DNA of 64,000 nucleotides, taken from assembly GCA_029776065.1 (NCBI GenBank), contig JARVJP010000011.1:1-64000 (forward strand). The letters are read 5' to 3'. This DNA comes from Nitrososphaeria archaeon (GTDB lineage Archaea; Thermoproteota; Nitrososphaeria; JACIWG01). The first letter of the stretch is position 1. Every line of letters starts with the position of its first letter. Positions 2,577-10,807 of the stretch are shown in pieces. The notes under the pieces are model-generated. The model searched no databases, was not told the DNA's origin, and saw nothing but the letters and a program-made list of their open reading frames with translations. Made by a program: the position numbers and the translations under genes.

Positions 2577-4133
2577 TTGGCTAAACTGTCGCATGGCATT
2601 CTTATCCTGTTCTTCACCTTCGTATTGGTAGCCTCAGAAACTGTAGTCGCTAATTACATGGCTACAAGCTCCACAACAACTACAGCTGCAGAAGAGCCTG
2701 ATGAAGTTCTACCTTCGGATTTTAAGTTAAATGTAGAACTTCGCTTAGAAGAAAGATCTGTGTGGTGCAGTTTGTCAATAAGACAGACGCCTTGGTTAAA
2801 TCAAAGTCAAGCAATTGAAGCTGTGAAGAAGGAGATAGCCAGCAGACTAGCATCTTACAACCTGTCATTTGAAATCGAGTCTGTCAAGTTCAGAGAAAAT
2901 ACTCCAATGAGTGTTGACTTTATTATACCCAACCTACCCATTGAAGGGGGACCACTAAAATACGGGTATAACAACTATTCCGTTGAATTGGGTTGGCTGG
3001 TTGACTGGGCTGGGGCGCCATTTACGCAATGGGCTGAAGTGAAGTCATCGCATAATCAAGGTGTCATCAATTATGCGAGAGAGATAGAAGGTAAAACCTA
3101 TAGCTTCACGCTAGACCCCCTTATAATGATCCAAGGATTCACCAATATAACTAAGCGTACGGAAACGCAGATAGTCTATTCGTTCTTTGTGCCAAATATG
3201 ATACTTGACCTTCAAATCCTACAAGATGGCATCAAAGTTACCAACATAACGAACTTTCTGAACAAAAGCGAGTTTGAACAGATTTACAATCAAGGGGAAC
3301 AGTATCAAGACAAAATCTTGAAAAATACTTCGGAAGAGCTTGCCCTTAGGTTAAGCCCCCTTGGGATGGTGGCCACAAACTTCGAAGTATGTCGTAGAGG
3401 ACCATATTCAACAGTAGGCATCCACTACACGATAAAAGGGGTGATTGAAAAGGTCACTGATAAGGAGTTCAAAGCTGACCTAAGATTCCTGAATATACCG
3501 CTGTCTGAGTTTACTGTATCTCAACACTCTTACTCTACAGTTCTACAATACGTTGGAACCATAGCTGGAAAGGAGGGAATAATTACAATATACTGTAAGT
3601 CTTTGTACAGAATAGGGGCTGATACTCTATTATGTTTACCGTTAGAGTTTACGACTACTACCGAAACCACGACAACTACAACAACGACGACCACTGAAAG
3701 GCCAGGAAACCTCTACACATACCTGGTTACTGTGCTGGCTGATAACTCAGTCGTCCTTGTATTAATCTCACTTTCCATTTTAGTTGGGACTCTAATATGG
3801 AGAGGGCATGTGAGAGTAGCTTGGAGCAGAAGCTGCTTTGACTACGACACATTCAAGCTCCTTGTAAGGATGAGGGGTGGAAGAACAAGGGTGAACCTTC
3901 TAAGGTCATTAGGTGAGCAAAAGAATAAGCTACAGCTGGCTAAAGAGCTTGGTATGGACTGGAAGGCGGTTGATCGCAACATAAGGATTCTGTTAAAGTA
4001 TGGTTTAATCAGAGAGTCCGAGTCCTCAGGTAAAGTGAAGTACTATTCACTAACACCTGATGGAAGGAAGGTCCTTGAGCTACTAGAAGAATTGAATAAT
4101 ACGGGTGGTCTAAGAGATCAGGCGGAGGAATGA
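2577..4133 (+). CDS. Membrane-tethered winged-helix regulator with a large extracytoplasmic domain
   Basis: 518 residues from a TTG start. Order: signal peptide or N-terminal helix (about 5-25), an extracytoplasmic domain of ~330 residues with many N-x-S/T sequons, a threonine-rich linker (about 358-378, runs of Thr broken by Glu), one membrane helix (about 385-408), then a ~100-residue cytoplasmic winged helix. In the last part KLQLAKELGMDWKAVDRNIR is the HTH and LIRESESSGKVKYYSLT the wing. This is a one-component architecture: an outside stimulus passed directly to a DNA-binding domain. The frameshifted small membrane protein begins 7 nt downstream and is probably co-transcribed. The ectodomain family is not recognised. 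Confidence 0.75.
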   Translation: MAKLSHGILILFFTFVLVASETVVANYMATSSTTTTAAEEPDEVLPSDFKLNVELRLEERSVWCSLSIRQTPWLNQSQAIEAVKKEIASRLASYNLSFEIESVKFRENTPMSVDFIIPNLPIEGGPLKYGYNNYSVELGWLVDWAGAPFTQWAEVKSSHNQGVINYAREIEGKTYSFTLDPLIMIQGFTNITKRTETQIVYSFFVPNMILDLQILQDGIKVTNITNFLNKSEFEQIYNQGEQYQDKILKNTSEELALRLSPLGMVATNFEVCRRGPYSTVGIHYTIKGVIEKVTDKEFKADLRFLNIPLSEFTVSQHSYSTVLQYVGTIAGKEGIITIYCKSLYRIGADTLLCLPLEFTTTTETTTTTTTTTTERPGNLYTYLVTVLADNSVVLVLISLSILVGTLIWRGHVRVAWSRSCFDYDTFKLLVRMRGGRTRVNLLRSLGEQKNKLQLAKELGMDWKAVDRNIRILLKYGLIRESESSGKVKYYSLTPDGRKVLELLEELNNTGGLRDQAEE

Positions 4134-4674: not shown

Positions 4675-6096
4675 CTAAGTTATAGCTCTCCCTTTATCCG
4701 TTAACGTATAAAATTCCCTCTTTCTACCTAAAACCATCTTCGAGCCAATTTTCTCCACATAGCCTTCTTTGGTTAGCTTGGATAAGTGTTGGTAGACGGT
4801 AGGAATCTTCACATTAATACTATGTTTCTCTCTTAATTCCTTCCAGATCTGGTAACCATATTTTTCTTTTTCAGACAATGACTTTAAAATCGCTGCTTTG
4901 GTGTCACCTAACAGCATACCCCCACTCAACTCTTCTATTAAGGTCCCTAGATTTGACCTTCTCAGGGCTATTTCCCTCATTAGTCTAGAGTCTTTAAGGC
5001 CGCTTCCTGTTATGACACAAACTACATTAGAGCCTTCCTTTATCTCCTCCATGTTTCTCAGTTTTATCAATCCTGCTATAGTTAAACTTGCAGCTGGTTC
5101 AGCAAGGACTCCTTCTCCCTCAGCTAACATATTCATAGCGTCTAATACCTCACTCTCGCTTATAGCGATGGCGGACCCGCCTGTTTCCCTTATCGCTTTT
5201 AGAGCCGCATTTCCAAATCTCGGCTTTGTAACGTTTAGATCGAATATCTTGGTTCTAGGCGAATTTAGAGGTTCAACAATATCTAACCCTTTCTGAAACG
5301 CCTCTACTATAGGAGCACAGCCATCTGGTTGCACACCGATAATCTTCGTCTTACAACCTGTTAATCTATTCAATTTTTTGAGTTCATTTAATGCTTTAAA
5401 GGTCGAATAGACCAACCCCCCTTCCCCCATCGGGAGTATAATGTAGTCTGGTAAAGTACGGTTAAGTTGGTAAAAGATTTCCCACATAATTGTCTTCTTG
5501 GCTTCATTTATTAGTGGGTCATATTCCGTGGCTACAGCTGTATCCCCTGTTTCTCCTGGCTTTTCTTTGAAGCTCTGCACCACCCTTACCTCAGCTCCAT
5601 ACGCTATCATTTGGTAAAGTTTTCCAAGGTCGATTCCTGGCTTAATGCAGACCTTCATCATTAACCCTGCTTTAGAAGAATATGCCGACAGAGAAGCACC
5701 AAGGTTCCCTGTGGAATATGTGACCAAGTTTCGACATCTTAATTGTAAGGCCATGGATGCGAATAACGCTGAGCTTCTATCCAGATAGGAGCCTGTCGGC
5801 TCTACCGTCTCATCCTTAAGCCAGAGTCTACTGATCCTAGTCTCATCCTTGATCTTCTTGCTTACATGTAAGGTTGTGTTCCCCTCACCTAAGGATATTC
5901 GAAATTCTCCGTCCAGACTTGGCAGTATTGCAGTGTATTTCCATATCCCAGTTGCATCCTGTTGAGGTTCAAAGTCATTAATCTGCTTTATTTCTATGGT
6001 GAGGCCGTTTCCGCATTTTGAACAAAGCTTTCTATTAATATCAAAATTATATCCTGCACCACAGCCTGTGCACTTCAATAATATATTGTTCGTCAT
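4675..6096 (-). CDS. Threonine-synthase-fold protein lacking the PLP lysine, fused to a PadR-like winged helix
   Basis: 473 residues. Residues 9-28 form a CxxC...CxxC zinc ribbon (CTGC, CSKC), as in archaeal threonine synthases. Residues ~65-385 are a fold-type II PLP-enzyme domain with recognisable motifs: LKDETVEPTGS, STGNLGAS, PMGEGG and TGSGLKD. The residue that should be the PLP-binding lysine (GSFKDR in the family) is leucine here (GSYLDR, Leu105, codon CTG, two base changes from a Lys codon). Residues ~390-473 are a winged helix resembling PadR (KYGYQIWKELREK...TVYQHLSKLTKEGYVEK). Catalysis by a Schiff base is therefore unlikely; a ligand-sensing transcription regulator is inferred. 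The divergent neighbour is an ECF S component, a plausible target. A residual lyase/synthase role cannot be fully excluded. Confidence 0.75.
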   Translation of the reverse strand: MTNNILLKCTGCGAGYNFDINRKLCSKCGNGLTIEIKQINDFEPQQDATGIWKYTAILPSLDGEFRISLGEGNTTLHVSKKIKDETRISRLWLKDETVEPTGSYLDRSSALFASMALQLRCRNLVTYSTGNLGASLSAYSSKAGLMMKVCIKPGIDLGKLYQMIAYGAEVRVVQSFKEKPGETGDTAVATEYDPLINEAKKTIMWEIFYQLNRTLPDYIILPMGEGGLVYSTFKALNELKKLNRLTGCKTKIIGVQPDGCAPIVEAFQKGLDIVEPLNSPRTKIFDLNVTKPRFGNAALKAIRETGGSAIAISESEVLDAMNMLAEGEGVLAEPAASLTIAGLIKLRNMEEIKEGSNVVCVITGSGLKDSRLMREIALRRSNLGTLIEELSGGMLLGDTKAAILKSLSEKEKYGYQIWKELREKHSINVKIPTVYQHLSKLTKEGYVEKIGSKMVLGRKREFYTLTDKGRAIT

Positions 6097-6170
6097 ATCT
6101 ATTACTAGACCTATATATAGAATACTGCTTATATATGTTCTTATTCTTTATTTCATCAGATGGTCGAACT

Positions 6171-6683
6171 ATGCGCGTAAAACTGCTGGCCTTAGTCAGT
6201 GTTATGACCCCATTAGTCACAGTGATGACAATGATATTCAAGATACCTATTCCGGCAACGCAAGGCTACTTCAACTTCGGAGACGCTGGAGTAATGTTAC
6301 TCAGCATGTTATTCGGTCCGTATGTGGGCTTGATTGCAGGAGGCCTCGGCTCCTCGTTAGCGGACATCCTCTCAGGGTATTCTTTTTATGCGCCGGTGAC
6401 CTTCTTTGCTAAAGGTGTTGAAGGCTTTATTGTAGGAGTGATATTTGCAAAATTCTATAAGAAATCGAAGCTACTGGCTTATACTTCAGGTCCAGTGGGC
6501 GGGTTATTTATGATATCCTCATACTTTATTTTTGAAAGTTATTTCTTCAGCATCGGCAACGCACTGGTAGAGCTTCCATGGAACATACTACAAGCACTAT
6601 TTGGTTCCATGATCGCTTACTCATTATATAAGCTACTCTTCCCTATCTTACATCAAAGGCTTCTCTTAAGATTCTTGACGTAA
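6171..6683 (+). CDS. ECF transporter substrate-binding S component
   Basis: About 170 residues and five to six membrane helices. The ATG at 6171 is preferred over an upstream in-frame ATG at 6135 because translation from 6171 begins directly with the first helix. The segment FNFGDAGVMLLSMLFGP, then GLIAGGLGSSLADILSGY and APVTFFAKGVEGFIVG, is the conserved core of small vitamin/precursor S components of energy-coupling-factor transporters. The substrate cannot be read from sequence. No EcfA/EcfT genes are in the window, so it probably uses a shared energising module. It is divergent from the threonine-synthase-like regulator, about 75 nt between starts, so control by that protein is plausible. 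No riboswitch-like structure precedes it. Confidence 0.75.
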   Translation: MRVKLLALVSVMTPLVTVMTMIFKIPIPATQGYFNFGDAGVMLLSMLFGPYVGLIAGGLGSSLADILSGYSFYAPVTFFAKGVEGFIVGVIFAKFYKKSKLLAYTSGPVGGLFMISSYFIFESYFFSIGNALVELPWNILQALFGSMIAYSLYKLLFPILHQRLLLRFLT

Positions 6684-6829: not shown

Positions 6830-7933
6830 GTGATGAAGTCGAACCAAGAACCCTTTTTTATTCAAAAAAAGAGTCTCGAGATAATACTTAGTAACCTGAA
6901 GCTTAAGGGGTATAAAGTTTTCGGTCCGAAGCTTAAGAACAATGCTATAGTCTTCGGTGAAGTTGGCTCAATAAATGATTTGCCAATAGGTTATGTTGAC
7001 ACCCAAGGGCCAGGGAAATACGAGGTTAAGAAGTCAAGTGAATCGTTCTTCTCATATGTTAATGGGCCGTTTTCTTTAAAGAACTTCCTCTACCCATCAG
7101 AGGTCGACCTTCTAAAGGTCGAGAAAAAGGATAACAAGATTCGTGTGCTATCTAACACAAACGTTGTTGAGAAGCGAGCTTTTGTGGGGATCAGGTCTTG
7201 TGACCTTTCAGCACTTAAAGTCTTGGATAAAACACTCTTAGGATACGAATATGTCGATGAGCAGTATAAGCTGCTTAGAAATGGGACATTCATATTAGGC
7301 GTTAACTGTGTTAGGGCTGGAGAAAACTGTTTTTGTACATCAATGAATACTGGGCCTAAGCTCGGTGACGGCTTTGACTTGGCTTTGACGGAGATGGAAG
7401 ATGGCTTCATGCTCGAGGTCGGAAGCGCAGAAGGTGAAAGGATGTTAGACGGCGTCGAATTGAGGAGAGCCTCAGAAGACGAAGTTCAACAAGCCGGTGA
7501 ACTGGTCGAGAGGGCAGCAAGAGTGATGGCGAAGAAGGTTAATATCTTAAACCTCAAGAACGTTCTCTATAGTCAGCTTACTAACCCAAGATGGGATGAT
7601 GTTGCTAAAAGATGTTTATCTTGTGGGAATTGCACTATGGTCTGCCCTACCTGCTTCTGCAACGATGTGTTCGATGACAACGAGCTTAAAAGTGGTGTAA
7701 CAACTAGGAAAAGAATTTGGGATTCATGCTTTAATGTAGAATTCGCTGAAACTACAGCCGGTAATGCTAGACCAACTATAAAGGATAGGTATAGGCAGTG
7801 GCTTATGCATAAGATGGCCTACTGGGTGGACCAATTTGGAACCTTTGGATGCGTTGGGTGTGGAAGATGCATAACATGGTGCCCTGTCGGAATAGATATA
7901 ACAGAGGAAGTAAGGGCTCTAAGAGGTGAATGA
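6830..7933 (+). CDS. hydB: Sulfhydrogenase beta subunit, 4Fe-4S electron-transfer protein
   Basis: 367 residues, homologous to the HydB/ShyB subunit of archaeal sulfhydrogenases and to anaerobic sulfite reductase subunit A. Two ferredoxin-type cluster motifs are near the C-terminus: CLSCGNCTMVCPTC (about 261-274) and CVGCGRCITWCPVG (about 344-357). The N-terminal ~230 residues carry the family segment RAFVGIRSCDLSALKVLD and a CxxxxxCFC motif. It relays electrons between the flavin subunit and the [NiFe] module. The start is either GTG 6830 or the next codon, ATG 6833. It overlaps the next gene by 8 nt, the sign of a co-translated operon. Confidence 0.88.
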   Translation: MMKSNQEPFFIQKKSLEIILSNLKLKGYKVFGPKLKNNAIVFGEVGSINDLPIGYVDTQGPGKYEVKKSSESFFSYVNGPFSLKNFLYPSEVDLLKVEKKDNKIRVLSNTNVVEKRAFVGIRSCDLSALKVLDKTLLGYEYVDEQYKLLRNGTFILGVNCVRAGENCFCTSMNTGPKLGDGFDLALTEMEDGFMLEVGSAEGERMLDGVELRRASEDEVQQAGELVERAARVMAKKVNILNLKNVLYSQLTNPRWDDVAKRCLSCGNCTMVCPTCFCNDVFDDNELKSGVTTRKRIWDSCFNVEFAETTAGNARPTIKDRYRQWLMHKMAYWVDQFGTFGCVGCGRCITWCPVGIDITEEVRALRGE

Positions 7934-8768
7934 TGTGGCATCCGGCTATTCCGAATTAAAAAATGCTAGAATTGAAGGGATCAGGTGGGATACACAGGAC
8001 ACAGCGACCGTCCGCGTAAGCCTTCTTGAGGAAGAAGGTAGAAAGAGTTACTCGTTCAAGCCTGGTCAGTTTAACATGCTCTATGTCCCTGGGGTCGGTG
8101 AAGCCGCAATATCTATTTCTTCTACTCCAGAAGGTTCTGGTGTCATAGAACATACAGTGAGGGCTGTAGGGTATATTACGAGGGCTCTGCTGAATTTAAA
8201 AGAAGGGGACTTCATAGGATTCCGTGGCCCCTACGGCAACTGGTGGCCTGTAGAATCAATTGCTAGACGAAACGTTCTTGTGATAGGGGGTGGGATCGGT
8301 GTCTGCCCTCTGAGGCCCGCAATCTACTACCTCCTTAAGAACAGGAAGAAATATAGTTCGGTGAAGATCCTCTATGGTTCGAGGACGCCGAAGGACTTGA
8401 TGTTCCCGGATGAATATAGTAGTTGGCGTGATAGTGGTGCGGAAGTTCACATAACCGTTGATAGAGGAGATGAAAATTGGAGAGAAAACGTTGGTGTTGT
8501 GACCACTCTACTTAACAAAGTCGATGTGAAGCCAGAAAATACTTCAGCCCTCGTATGTGGTCCTGAAATAATGATGAAGTTTACCGCTATAGATTTGGTG
8601 ATGAGGGGGATTAAGCCCGAGGACATCTACCTCTCTATGGAGAGGAGAATGAAGTGTGGTATAGGATTGTGTGGTCACTGCCAGTTCGGTGGATTCTTTG
8701 TATGTAGGGATGGCCCTATTTTCACATATAATCAGGTAGAGAAATTTTTGAATGTGAAGGGGATATAG
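7926..8768 (+). CDS. hydG: Sulfhydrogenase gamma subunit, FAD/NAD(P)-binding reductase with a 2Fe-2S site
   Basis: 280 residues of the ferredoxin-NADP reductase/PyrK superfamily (HydG/ShyG, AsrB). Residues ~20-100 are the FAD-binding barrel (KPGQFNMLYVPG, AISISSTP). Residues ~110-230 are the nucleotide-binding domain (VLVIGGGIGVCPLRP). A C-terminal cysteine motif CGIGLCGHC...C binds the 2Fe-2S cluster. It passes electrons between NAD(P)H and the hydrogenase iron-sulfur chain. GTG start within the end of the previous gene; the next gene starts directly after its stop. Confidence 0.9.
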   Translation: MNDVASGYSELKNARIEGIRWDTQDTATVRVSLLEEEGRKSYSFKPGQFNMLYVPGVGEAAISISSTPEGSGVIEHTVRAVGYITRALLNLKEGDFIGFRGPYGNWWPVESIARRNVLVIGGGIGVCPLRPAIYYLLKNRKKYSSVKILYGSRTPKDLMFPDEYSSWRDSGAEVHITVDRGDENWRENVGVVTTLLNKVDVKPENTSALVCGPEIMMKFTAIDLVMRGIKPEDIYLSMERRMKCGIGLCGHCQFGGFFVCRDGPIFTYNQVEKFLNVKGI

Positions 8769-9533
8769 ATGGCTGGGAAACTAAAGATCGCGGTTGTAAA
8801 GTTCGCATCATGCAGTGGTTGCCAAGGAGTTCTACTCGACGCAGAGGAGGAATTGCCCTTCTTGGTTGATAACCATCTTGACATACAATACTTTATAGAA
8901 GCGACTAGCAGGATCGGAGATGGTCCCTACGACTTAGCCCTAGTTGAAGGCTCAATATCAGTACCAGAGGATTTGAAGAGGGTAAAGGAGATTAGAGAAA
9001 AGTCAAAGATCGTTGCCACAATTGGAGCATGTGCTACAACAGGTGGTATCCAGGCGCTTAGAAACTGGTCTTCCTTAAACGACTTCTCTCGAACCGTCTA
9101 CTTGAACCCTGAATGGATAGCATCTCTGGACAAGTCTACTCCAATATCAGAGCATATTAAGGTTGATTACGAGCTGAACGGTTGTCCGATTAGCAAGCAA
9201 CAACTACTTGATTTCATAGTTTCCATGGTCATTGGGAAGAGGCCTAGAATAGAAAGGAACAGTGTATGTGTTGAGTGTAAGAGGTTAGGGAACGTCTGCG
9301 TGCTCGTAGCTGATAAGCTTCCCTGCATGGGGCCTGTAACTAAGGCAGGGTGTGGTGCTCTTTGTCCCTCTTATGGTAGGGACTGTTACTCGTGCTTTGG
9401 GCCTTTCGAGGATATAAACGTAGAATCTTTGAAGAAGAAGTTCAAAGAAATAGGTTTGAAAGATTATGAAGTCCTACATAAATTTAGAGAGTTCACTGGT
9501 TATTCAAAACAATTTAGAGAGGTGAAGGTTTGA
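8769..9533 (+). CDS. hydD: [NiFe] sulfhydrogenase delta (small) subunit
   Basis: 254 residues of the [NiFe]-hydrogenase small-subunit family. The proximal cluster motif CSGCQ is at residues ~15-19, with a further GACAT and ELNGCPISKQQ. C-terminal cysteine groups (CVECKR...CVLV, CMGPVTKAGCGALCP, CYSCFGP) match the additional clusters seen in group 3 small subunits. It conducts electrons to the large subunit. No Tat signal is visible, so a cytoplasmic enzyme is expected. It overlaps the next gene by one base (TGATG). Confidence 0.9.
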   Translation: MAGKLKIAVVKFASCSGCQGVLLDAEEELPFLVDNHLDIQYFIEATSRIGDGPYDLALVEGSISVPEDLKRVKEIREKSKIVATIGACATTGGIQALRNWSSLNDFSRTVYLNPEWIASLDKSTPISEHIKVDYELNGCPISKQQLLDFIVSMVIGKRPRIERNSVCVECKRLGNVCVLVADKLPCMGPVTKAGCGALCPSYGRDCYSCFGPFEDINVESLKKKFKEIGLKDYEVLHKFREFTGYSKQFREVKV

Positions 9534-10807
9534 TGGAAAAGGTTTACGAAGTTAACCCATTAACGAGAGTCGAAGGGGAAGGGAAGATCTACGCTAGAGT
9601 GAAAGAAAATGTGGTTGAAGATGTTAAGGTAAATATTTATGAACCACCACGATTCTTCGAAGCCTTCCTACTAGGTAGGAGCTATAAGGACGTTCCAGAC
9701 ATTGTAGCTCGAATTTGCGGTATATGCCCTGTGGCGTACCAGATGAGTTCTACTCATGCTATTGAAAAAGCCTTTAACTTAGAAATTGATCAAGCCATAG
9801 AAAAAGTTAGGCGACTCCTATACTGTGGGGAGTGGGTACAGAGTCACGCATTACACTTCTTCCTACTTGCTCTACCAGACTTCTTCGCTCTTCAAGATGT
9901 ATTCGAACTAACGAAGGTGCAACCGGATGTTGTAAAGGCAGGATTAGAGGTGAAGAAGGCTGGGAACTCAATTATGGCTTTGATTGGAGGGCGATCAATT
10001 CACCCTGTAAGCCCATGTGTAGGCGGATTCACAGGTCTCCCACCAGGGTATAAGTTTAAGCGGTTGATTGAGCAGTTGAAAAACGCTGAAAGGAAGGTTT
10101 TGAAGGTATCAGACTGGATAATGGAAAATGTGAAGGTGCCTGAACTTAAGCATGAACTAGAATTGGTGTCATTGTTGGATCAAAATGAGTATCCGATGAT
10201 TTATGGGAAGGTCGCCTCTAGCAGTGGCTTACAGGTAAACCAAGAAGACTATGACAAGTACTTTGATGAGTATCAGGTTGAACACTCCACGGCATTGCAC
10301 TCAAAGACCAAGGAAGGCAAAACCTACATAGTCGGACCTCTCCCAAGGTTAAGATTGAACGTAAGCAGCCTATACCCTCAAGCGAAACAATATGCTAAGG
10401 TTGTAAACGACAAGAATGTCTACATGCAGAACATCGCTAGATTCTTGGAAATGTTACACGCATTAGAGGAGGCGATCGACATACTTGAAGACTACAAGGA
10501 GCCTTCGAGAAGTAAGGTTCCGGTTGAGCCGAAGAAGTCAAGTGGCGCTTGGATAACTGAGGCGCCAAGGGGTATGTTGTATCACAGATATGAACTGGAT
10601 GAGTCGGGCAGAGTTAAGTCCGCCAAGATCATACCGCCTACGTCGCAGAATCTAGCCAACATAGAAGATAACTTGAAAGCCCTACTGGAAAATCGAGGGC
10701 ATGAATCTGATGAGGAACTGGTAAGGTTGTGTGGGATGCTGATACGAAGTTACGACCCATGTATCTCGTGTTCCGCGCACGCCTTACAGATTAAGATAGA
10801 TCGTTGA
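9533..10807 (+). CDS. hydA: [NiFe] sulfhydrogenase alpha (large, catalytic) subunit, group 3b type
   Basis: 424 residues. The NPLTRVEGEGK N-terminus, the L1 nickel-binding motif RICGICPVAYQ and the C-terminal L2 motif DPCISCSAH are all present, giving the four Ni-ligating cysteines. ATG 9533 with GAGAGGTGAAGG upstream is preferred to the TTG one codon earlier. After the last His there are only 8 residues (ALQIKIDR), a short tail that a maturation protease may remove; no hyp or protease gene lies nearby. With its HydBGD partners it should be a bifunctional cytoplasmic H2:NAD(P)+ oxidoreductase that can also reduce sulfur, as known for group 3b enzymes. The direction in vivo is not readable here. 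Confidence 0.92.
   Translation: MEKVYEVNPLTRVEGEGKIYARVKENVVEDVKVNIYEPPRFFEAFLLGRSYKDVPDIVARICGICPVAYQMSSTHAIEKAFNLEIDQAIEKVRRLLYCGEWVQSHALHFFLLALPDFFALQDVFELTKVQPDVVKAGLEVKKAGNSIMALIGGRSIHPVSPCVGGFTGLPPGYKFKRLIEQLKNAERKVLKVSDWIMENVKVPELKHELELVSLLDQNEYPMIYGKVASSSGLQVNQEDYDKYFDEYQVEHSTALHSKTKEGKTYIVGPLPRLRLNVSSLYPQAKQYAKVVNDKNVYMQNIARFLEMLHALEEAIDILEDYKEPSRSKVPVEPKKSSGAWITEAPRGMLYHRYELDESGRVKSAKIIPPTSQNLANIEDNLKALLENRGHESDEELVRLCGMLIRSYDPCISCSAHALQIKIDR

Follow-up and report, generated by a model that had tools for sequence, protein, structure and literature searches.

A threonine-synthase-like protein without its PLP lysine, fused to a PadR-type winged helix, is probably a vitamin B6-sensing gene switch in Thermoproteota

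Does a protein with the fold of threonine synthase, a leucine in place of the PLP lysine and a DNA-binding domain at its C-terminus still act as an enzyme, and if not, what does it sense and which genes does it control? The question is raised by a locus at positions 4,675 to 6,683 of a 64,000-nucleotide stretch of DNA from a Nitrososphaeria archaeon (contig JARVJP010000011.1), the whole of which is here called the window. The fusion probably works as a B6-sensing gene switch and not as an enzyme, because the PLP Lys is lost, a DNA-binding domain is present, B6 uptake or synthesis genes lie beside it in dozens of lineages, and a DNA site is shared. The full proposal, given a probability of roughly 0.7, is a threonine-synthase-derived transcription regulator, probably PLP-sensing, which controls a B6 uptake or synthesis gene together with its own gene. 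The fusion, the loss of the Lys, the linkage to B6 genes, the shared DNA site and the lack of pdxS and pdxJ in the own genome are read directly from sequence; DNA binding, the ligand, the direction of control and B6 transport are inferred. The features of the locus are as follows.

4675..6096, minus strand: regulator gene, encoding a zinc ribbon, a threonine-synthase-like PALP domain and a C-terminal PadR-type winged helix-turn-helix (wHTH); 473 aa, open reading frame intact
4684..4890, minus strand: PadR-type wHTH, residues 403-471 (PF03551, E=3.4e-15)
5782..5784, minus strand: codon 105, Leu in place of the PLP Schiff-base Lys (GSYLDR), from alignment to solved threonine synthases
6013..6072, minus strand: N-terminal zinc ribbon, C9/C12/C25/C28, conserved across fusions
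6110..6121, no strand assigned: predicted operator, CCTATATATAGA on the plus strand and TCTATATATAGG on the regulator strand; motif common to S-component and pdxS spacers; no binding data
6128..6136, minus strand: TATA-like element ATATATAAG, at a conserved spacing from the operator
6171..6683, plus strand: ECF transporter S component (PF07155, 1.3e-34; relative of 4hzu_S), predicted to serve vitamin B6 uptake (PdxU/PdxU2-like)

The PALP domain (PF00291) occupies residues 67-364 of the regulator with E=2.9e-54 (Pfam), and the AlphaFold model has a mean pLDDT of 90. Threonine synthases head its Foldseek list (2c2b, 6cgq and 2zsj, 1e-26 to 1e-27), which assigns the protein to the threonine-synthase fold. 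The C-terminal domain is a wHTH of the PadR type, and PadR matches in the PDB are returned as well; the layout of a small stand-alone PadR with a C-terminal dimerisation helix is not found, the wHTH being the last domain of a 473-aa protein. The four zinc-ribbon cysteines are invariant among 15 aligned fusions; among 40, C25 and C28 remain invariant and C9 and C12 are conserved in at least 90%. An earlier note, made from the letters of the window alone, had described a zinc ribbon and STGN, PMGEGG and TGSGLKD motifs in the enzyme domain, a PadR-like wHTH at the C-terminus and Leu at the Schiff-base position, and each of these is present as claimed. A pseudogene is ruled out by the intact reading frame and by conservation over about 40 families.

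In the phmmer alignment with four solved threonine synthases, EPTGSYLDRS pairs without a gap with xPTGSFKDRG, and Leu105 falls on their PLP Lys; the Schiff-base Lys of an active threonine synthase is therefore missing. To collect fusions, related genomes and a set of 398 Thermoproteota genomes were searched and the loci extracted; a scan of genome contigs with the protein alone had returned only one distant stand-alone homologue, and the whole-genome search by relatives succeeded. The resulting 110 fusions that run through the wHTH come from more than 100 Thermoproteota genomes in about 40 family-level groups. The Lys column reads R 40, L 38, T 8, I 7, V 6, M 5, F 3, K 2 and A 1; one of the three F rows stems from a fragment in which the site itself is missing. 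Lys is thus absent from 107 of the 109 fusions that cover it, whereas all 13 stand-alone threonine synthases of the same set keep it (a 14th stand-alone row, without Lys, is a truncated Arg fusion), which makes the substitution at residue 105 more than chance. Further members with Leu and a C-terminal wHTH, for which the earlier note had proposed to look, do exist, but Leu is not the family's sole residue at the site.

A single branch, with support of 93 (FastTree) and 96 (IQ-TREE), divides the fusions from the Lys-bearing enzymes, so the correlation between fusion and Lys loss probably reflects one event rather than many independent ones. The fusions fall into two large groups, one mostly hydrophobic at the Lys site, to which the window protein belongs, and one with Arg (the Arg clade, about 42 fusions). 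Two Lys-bearing fusions (TNSFKDR; loci L213 and L216, genomes G387 and G271) are nested inside the Arg clade, where the Lys is possibly a reversion.

The rest of the PLP pocket is kept. Among the 110 fusions, N131 of the STGN loop is conserved in 108, G224 and G226 of the Gly-rich loop in 108 and 110, and T363 and K368 of TGxGLKD in 106 and 110. These positions are taken to contact the O3', phosphate and N1 of PLP in threonine synthases, although the contacts were not individually checked here. Ten of 14 stand-alone proteins have Arg in column 196 (NPYR), presumably the substrate-phosphate arginine of threonine synthase; almost every fusion has F, V, I, L, S, T, Y or A there. With the PLP motifs kept and this Arg lost, the pocket looks suited to PLP and not to phosphohomoserine chemistry. 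As far as the alignment can tell, covalent binding of PLP at the usual site would be impossible without the Lys; given the retained pocket, PLP or a species derived from it is probably still bound, reversibly and with no Schiff base at that site. Sensing without catalysis remains an inference, since no binding has been measured.

The reading frame of the divergent S component opens at 6135, and the in-frame ATG at 6171 is the likely start because the ATG at 6135 lies within the TATA element. The spacer then measures 74 nt, in line with the roughly 75 nt of the earlier note. By clustering of neighbouring ORFs, a PF07155 S component is located no more than two genes from the fusion in 55 of 108 genomes; it is divergent and adjacent in 22 and co-directional in about 32. 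Most of the co-directional cases belong to the Arg-bearing sister clade, in which regulator and S component mostly share an operon, so the idea that the fusion is always divergent from the same S component does not hold. The identical divergent pair recurs in a 100% complete genome (G095) whose regulator is only 35% identical. In six genomes from three families (G032, G017, G029; G127, G161; G237), the divergent partner is instead pdxS followed by pdxT, and in G035 regulator and pdxS both sit at contig ends in a manner that fits a divergent arrangement. Neither B6 gene is near the fusion in a substantial minority of cases.

The substrate of the S component is indicated by its relatives. The only significant PDB match is chain S of 4hzu, HmpT/PdxU2 (4.3e-14 with the single sequence, 1.3e-23 with a profile), and together with the PF07155 match this places the protein with the S components PdxU and PdxU2. 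TIGR04002 is matched by each of the 31 S components examined, and PF07155, to which PdxU and PdxU2 belong (PMC9997740), by every one that was tested against it. Pyridoxamine was found to be the substrate that HmpT/PdxU2 binds (PMC4860826). Four of the six residues of the HmpT pocket are kept or conservatively changed: Tyr120, Asn140 and Gln143 are retained, and Glu41 is Glu or Asp (Asp in the window). The other two differ, His84 being Lys and Gln87 being Glu, so the substrate could differ too, and B6 specificity is likely without being certain. Many of the homologues carry an insert. The earlier note had left the S component to a cofactor or an amino acid; a cofactor is supported, and it is most probably vitamin B6, because pdxST replaces the S component in six genomes, the HmpT relative carries pyridoxamine, and the spacers share an operator.

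This operator is a new near-palindrome, CCTATATATAGG, common to the spacers between fusion and S component and those between fusion and pdxS, so that one DNA site ties regulator, S component and pdxST together. With at most two mismatches it is found upstream of 35 of the 110 fusions, against 15 of 937 control genes (Fisher p about 1e-32), and 33 of these 35 belong to the mostly hydrophobic group. A de novo search recovers CCTA-N4-TAGG in 15 of 63 upstream regions, where 0.2 would be expected. The 29 loci that can be aligned on the site yield the composite consensus AAATATATAAG-N6-CCTATATATAGG, with the TATA box at a fixed distance; being near-palindromic, the TATA-like element of the window may serve both divergent promoters. 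The exact core CTATATATAGG occurs once in the 1.74-Mb own genome, at 6110-6120 in the spacer between regulator and S component. One-mismatch sites there are about as numerous as those of a reversed control pattern, and no further regulon members are therefore claimed.

Away from the regulator, the site is uneven. In G120, where pdxS is on another contig, CCTATGTATAGA (two mismatches) stands ahead of its TATA box, and the non-adjacent pdxS of G270 has a weak site with three mismatches. The operator is absent upstream of the non-adjacent pdxS of G013, G016, G145, G252 and G325 and was not found upstream of the non-adjacent S components of G001 and G003. Among fusion-free genomes, only one examined pdxS has a two-mismatch site. 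In the Arg clade, CCTATATATAGG is missing, and k-mer and gapped-palindrome searches revealed nothing shared.

The B6 supply of the hosts was also compared. None of the five genomes of the family, the own genome included, has pdxS, and pdxJ was not found in the own genome; with neither gene, the organism should depend on imported B6. One strong PF08543 kinase and three EcfT-like genes are present. Across 398 genomes, pdxS occurs in 9 of 92 with a fusion versus 177 of 306 without (Fisher 2e-17), and the anticorrelation remains (3e-10) when 72 close relatives from the same class that carry pdxS, presumably ammonia oxidisers, are left out. It is used as supporting evidence only, because shared ancestry inflates or confounds it.

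Several other observations were made around these loci. In the Arg clade, the S component is often followed within the operon, in 22 genomes, by a gene related to AIR synthase (PF00586/PF02769, the superfamily to which ThiL belongs; L172:8338-9345, L212:3438-4451); it is possibly a B6-vitamer kinase of a new type. In G034 and G031 (L054:8370-11020, L063:4843-7466), an amino-acid-permease-like gene is transcribed away from the fusion, and behind it comes an aminotransferase gene. The best NCBIfam match of the aminotransferase, which stays below the cut-off, is pyridoxamine-pyruvate transaminase; the spacers at these loci contain the variant site TTTATATATAAA/TTTATCTATAAA. The archaeal PdxS proteins at L050:8881-9930, L051:8618-9667 and L053:6358-7401 have an N-terminal extension of ~55 aa outside the PdxS models. 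In the window, genes for sulfhydrogenase/[NiFe]-hydrogenase-like subunits (6830-10807, plus strand) begin ~150 bp past the S component and were not seen at the other loci examined, and a 518-aa protein (2577-4133, plus strand) with an apparent signal or transmembrane region and a C-terminal wHTH (HTH_45) would represent a membrane-bound regulator near the locus. Neighbours named by eye from sequence as acylphosphatase, UbiX/UbiD, GatE and deoxyhypusine synthase were set aside as lineage-specific passengers.

The following mechanism is hypothesized. A threonine synthase would have gained a C-terminal PadR-type wHTH and lost its PLP Lys, becoming a regulator whose retained pocket binds PLP or a PLP-derived species reversibly. 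The wHTH would bind CCTATATATAGG in the spacer and control the divergent B6 gene, here the PdxU-like S component and elsewhere pdxST, along with the regulator's own gene. When PLP is scarce, the B6 gene would be activated and the regulator gene autorepressed. For the regulator, the operator is positioned between TATA box and start, and for the target just upstream of the likely TATA box; this arrangement, together with the like behaviour of apo-PdxR, favours autorepression with target activation. In archaea, sites downstream of the TATA box are typical of repression and sites upstream of it typical of activation, as for TrmBL1/Tgr (PMC4158304). The main alternative mode, in which the PLP-bound form represses both genes, is not excluded. 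In its broadest form the proposal becomes an even bet: a large unrecognised archaeal family of B6-responsive transcription factors and the first PLP sensor to be built on fold type II, reading free PLP precisely because the catalytic Lys is gone, with a single site through which B6 uptake or synthesis is activated and the own gene repressed, convergent with bacterial PdxR.

Other readings of the protein have to be weighed against a B6 switch, which has no binding, expression or mutant data behind it and has to accommodate an Arg clade with S-component linkage but without this operator. That clade also lends some weight to a sensor of a threonine-pathway amino acid (threonine or homoserine phosphate) controlling thrC or an S component for amino acids: the sensor domain descends from threonine synthase, and in nine genomes of one family the fusion adjoins a true, Lys-bearing threonine synthase gene, divergently in at least five. 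All such cases are however confined to this one family of the Arg clade, elsewhere the partners that recur are pdxST and a PdxU-type S component, and the column-196 Arg of the stand-alone proteins is not among the common residues of the fusions, which leaves the idea unlikely. A role in riboflavin or hydroxymethylpyrimidine/thiamine supply is suggested by the Pfam name ECF-ribofla_trS, by weak matches of 16 of the 31 S components to riboflavin S components, and by the first description of HmpT as a hydroxymethylpyrimidine carrier; it is improbable given the same operator at pdxS-pdxT, the pyridoxamine substrate of HmpT (PMC4860826) and a best PDB relative that is HmpT and not RibU.

Free variation at the position of the lost catalytic Lys would also be compatible with a domain that has no small-molecule ligand and merely forms a dimerisation scaffold for the wHTH, but the Gly-rich loop, the Asn of S(T/N)GN and the Thr and Lys of TGxGLKD are kept in nearly all 110 fusions, beyond what a scaffold needs, and this reading is highly improbable. 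An active threonine synthase with an appended domain is scarcely credible. The NCBIfam model PRK05638, named 'threonine synthase', does cover the whole length of the fusion, one protein of the Arg clade exceeds its cut-off (424 vs 421), and two fusions retain Lys; against this, both are nested in the Arg clade and the Lys is missing from all other fusions covering the site, the window protein fails the curated cut-offs (244.9 vs 421 for PRK05638, 132.3 vs 167.1 for TIGR00260), and stand-alone homologues that keep the Lys are encoded elsewhere in the own genome, on contigs C14 and C9. As an observation on the model itself, PRK05638 (NF004170) is an equivalog model that includes the wHTH, and the Arg-clade protein that passes it is without the PLP Lys; the name given to the fusions is likely a systematic misannotation.

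Since the sequence is already known as PRK05638 'threonine synthase', the novelty of a B6-sensing regulator lies in function and mechanism. To our knowledge, very few organisms have a known B6 transporter. Many Thermoproteota are without pdxS, and the family would supply an archaeal B6 regulator and transporter and correct a widespread annotation. Direct tests become possible on one short DNA site, one small-molecule class and one residue. No paper on a PLP-type regulator of fold type II was found in the open-access literature.

Among known systems, ThrC, including PRK05638, has the same zinc ribbon, PALP fold and PLP-pocket motifs, with PRK05638 covering the wHTH too; the regulator differs in the missing PLP Lys, the loss of the probable substrate-phosphate Arg, the added wHTH and the linkage to B6 genes. 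The divergent S component is of the same PF07155 family as HmpT/PdxU2 and PdxU, with two of six HmpT pocket residues changed. The archaeal regulators RbkR and ThiR likewise join an enzyme domain of cofactor metabolism to an HTH and control the same pathway, but their folds, cofactors and operators all differ. The closest parallel in design is bacterial PdxR, of the MocR subfamily of GntR, which also combines a PLP-enzyme fold with a wHTH and has its operator in a shared spacer. PdxR is often divergent from pdxST and also controls pdxU; in its apo-form it activates pdxST and represses its own gene, PLP acting as anti-activator, and MocR regulators are stated to be 'not present in Archaea' (PMC5320631). 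The divergent arrangement with pdxST or pdxU and an operator in the shared spacer is reproduced here, while the domains of MocR/PdxR are not: PdxR, which is confined to bacteria, has an N-terminal GntR-type wHTH and an aminotransferase domain of fold type I, whereas the archaeal regulator has a C-terminal PadR-type wHTH on fold type II without the Schiff-base Lys. The MocR-like design on a different PLP-enzyme fold that the earlier note had suspected is thus borne out, and if the B6 switch is real, two unrelated PLP-enzyme folds have each been turned into a B6 gene switch.
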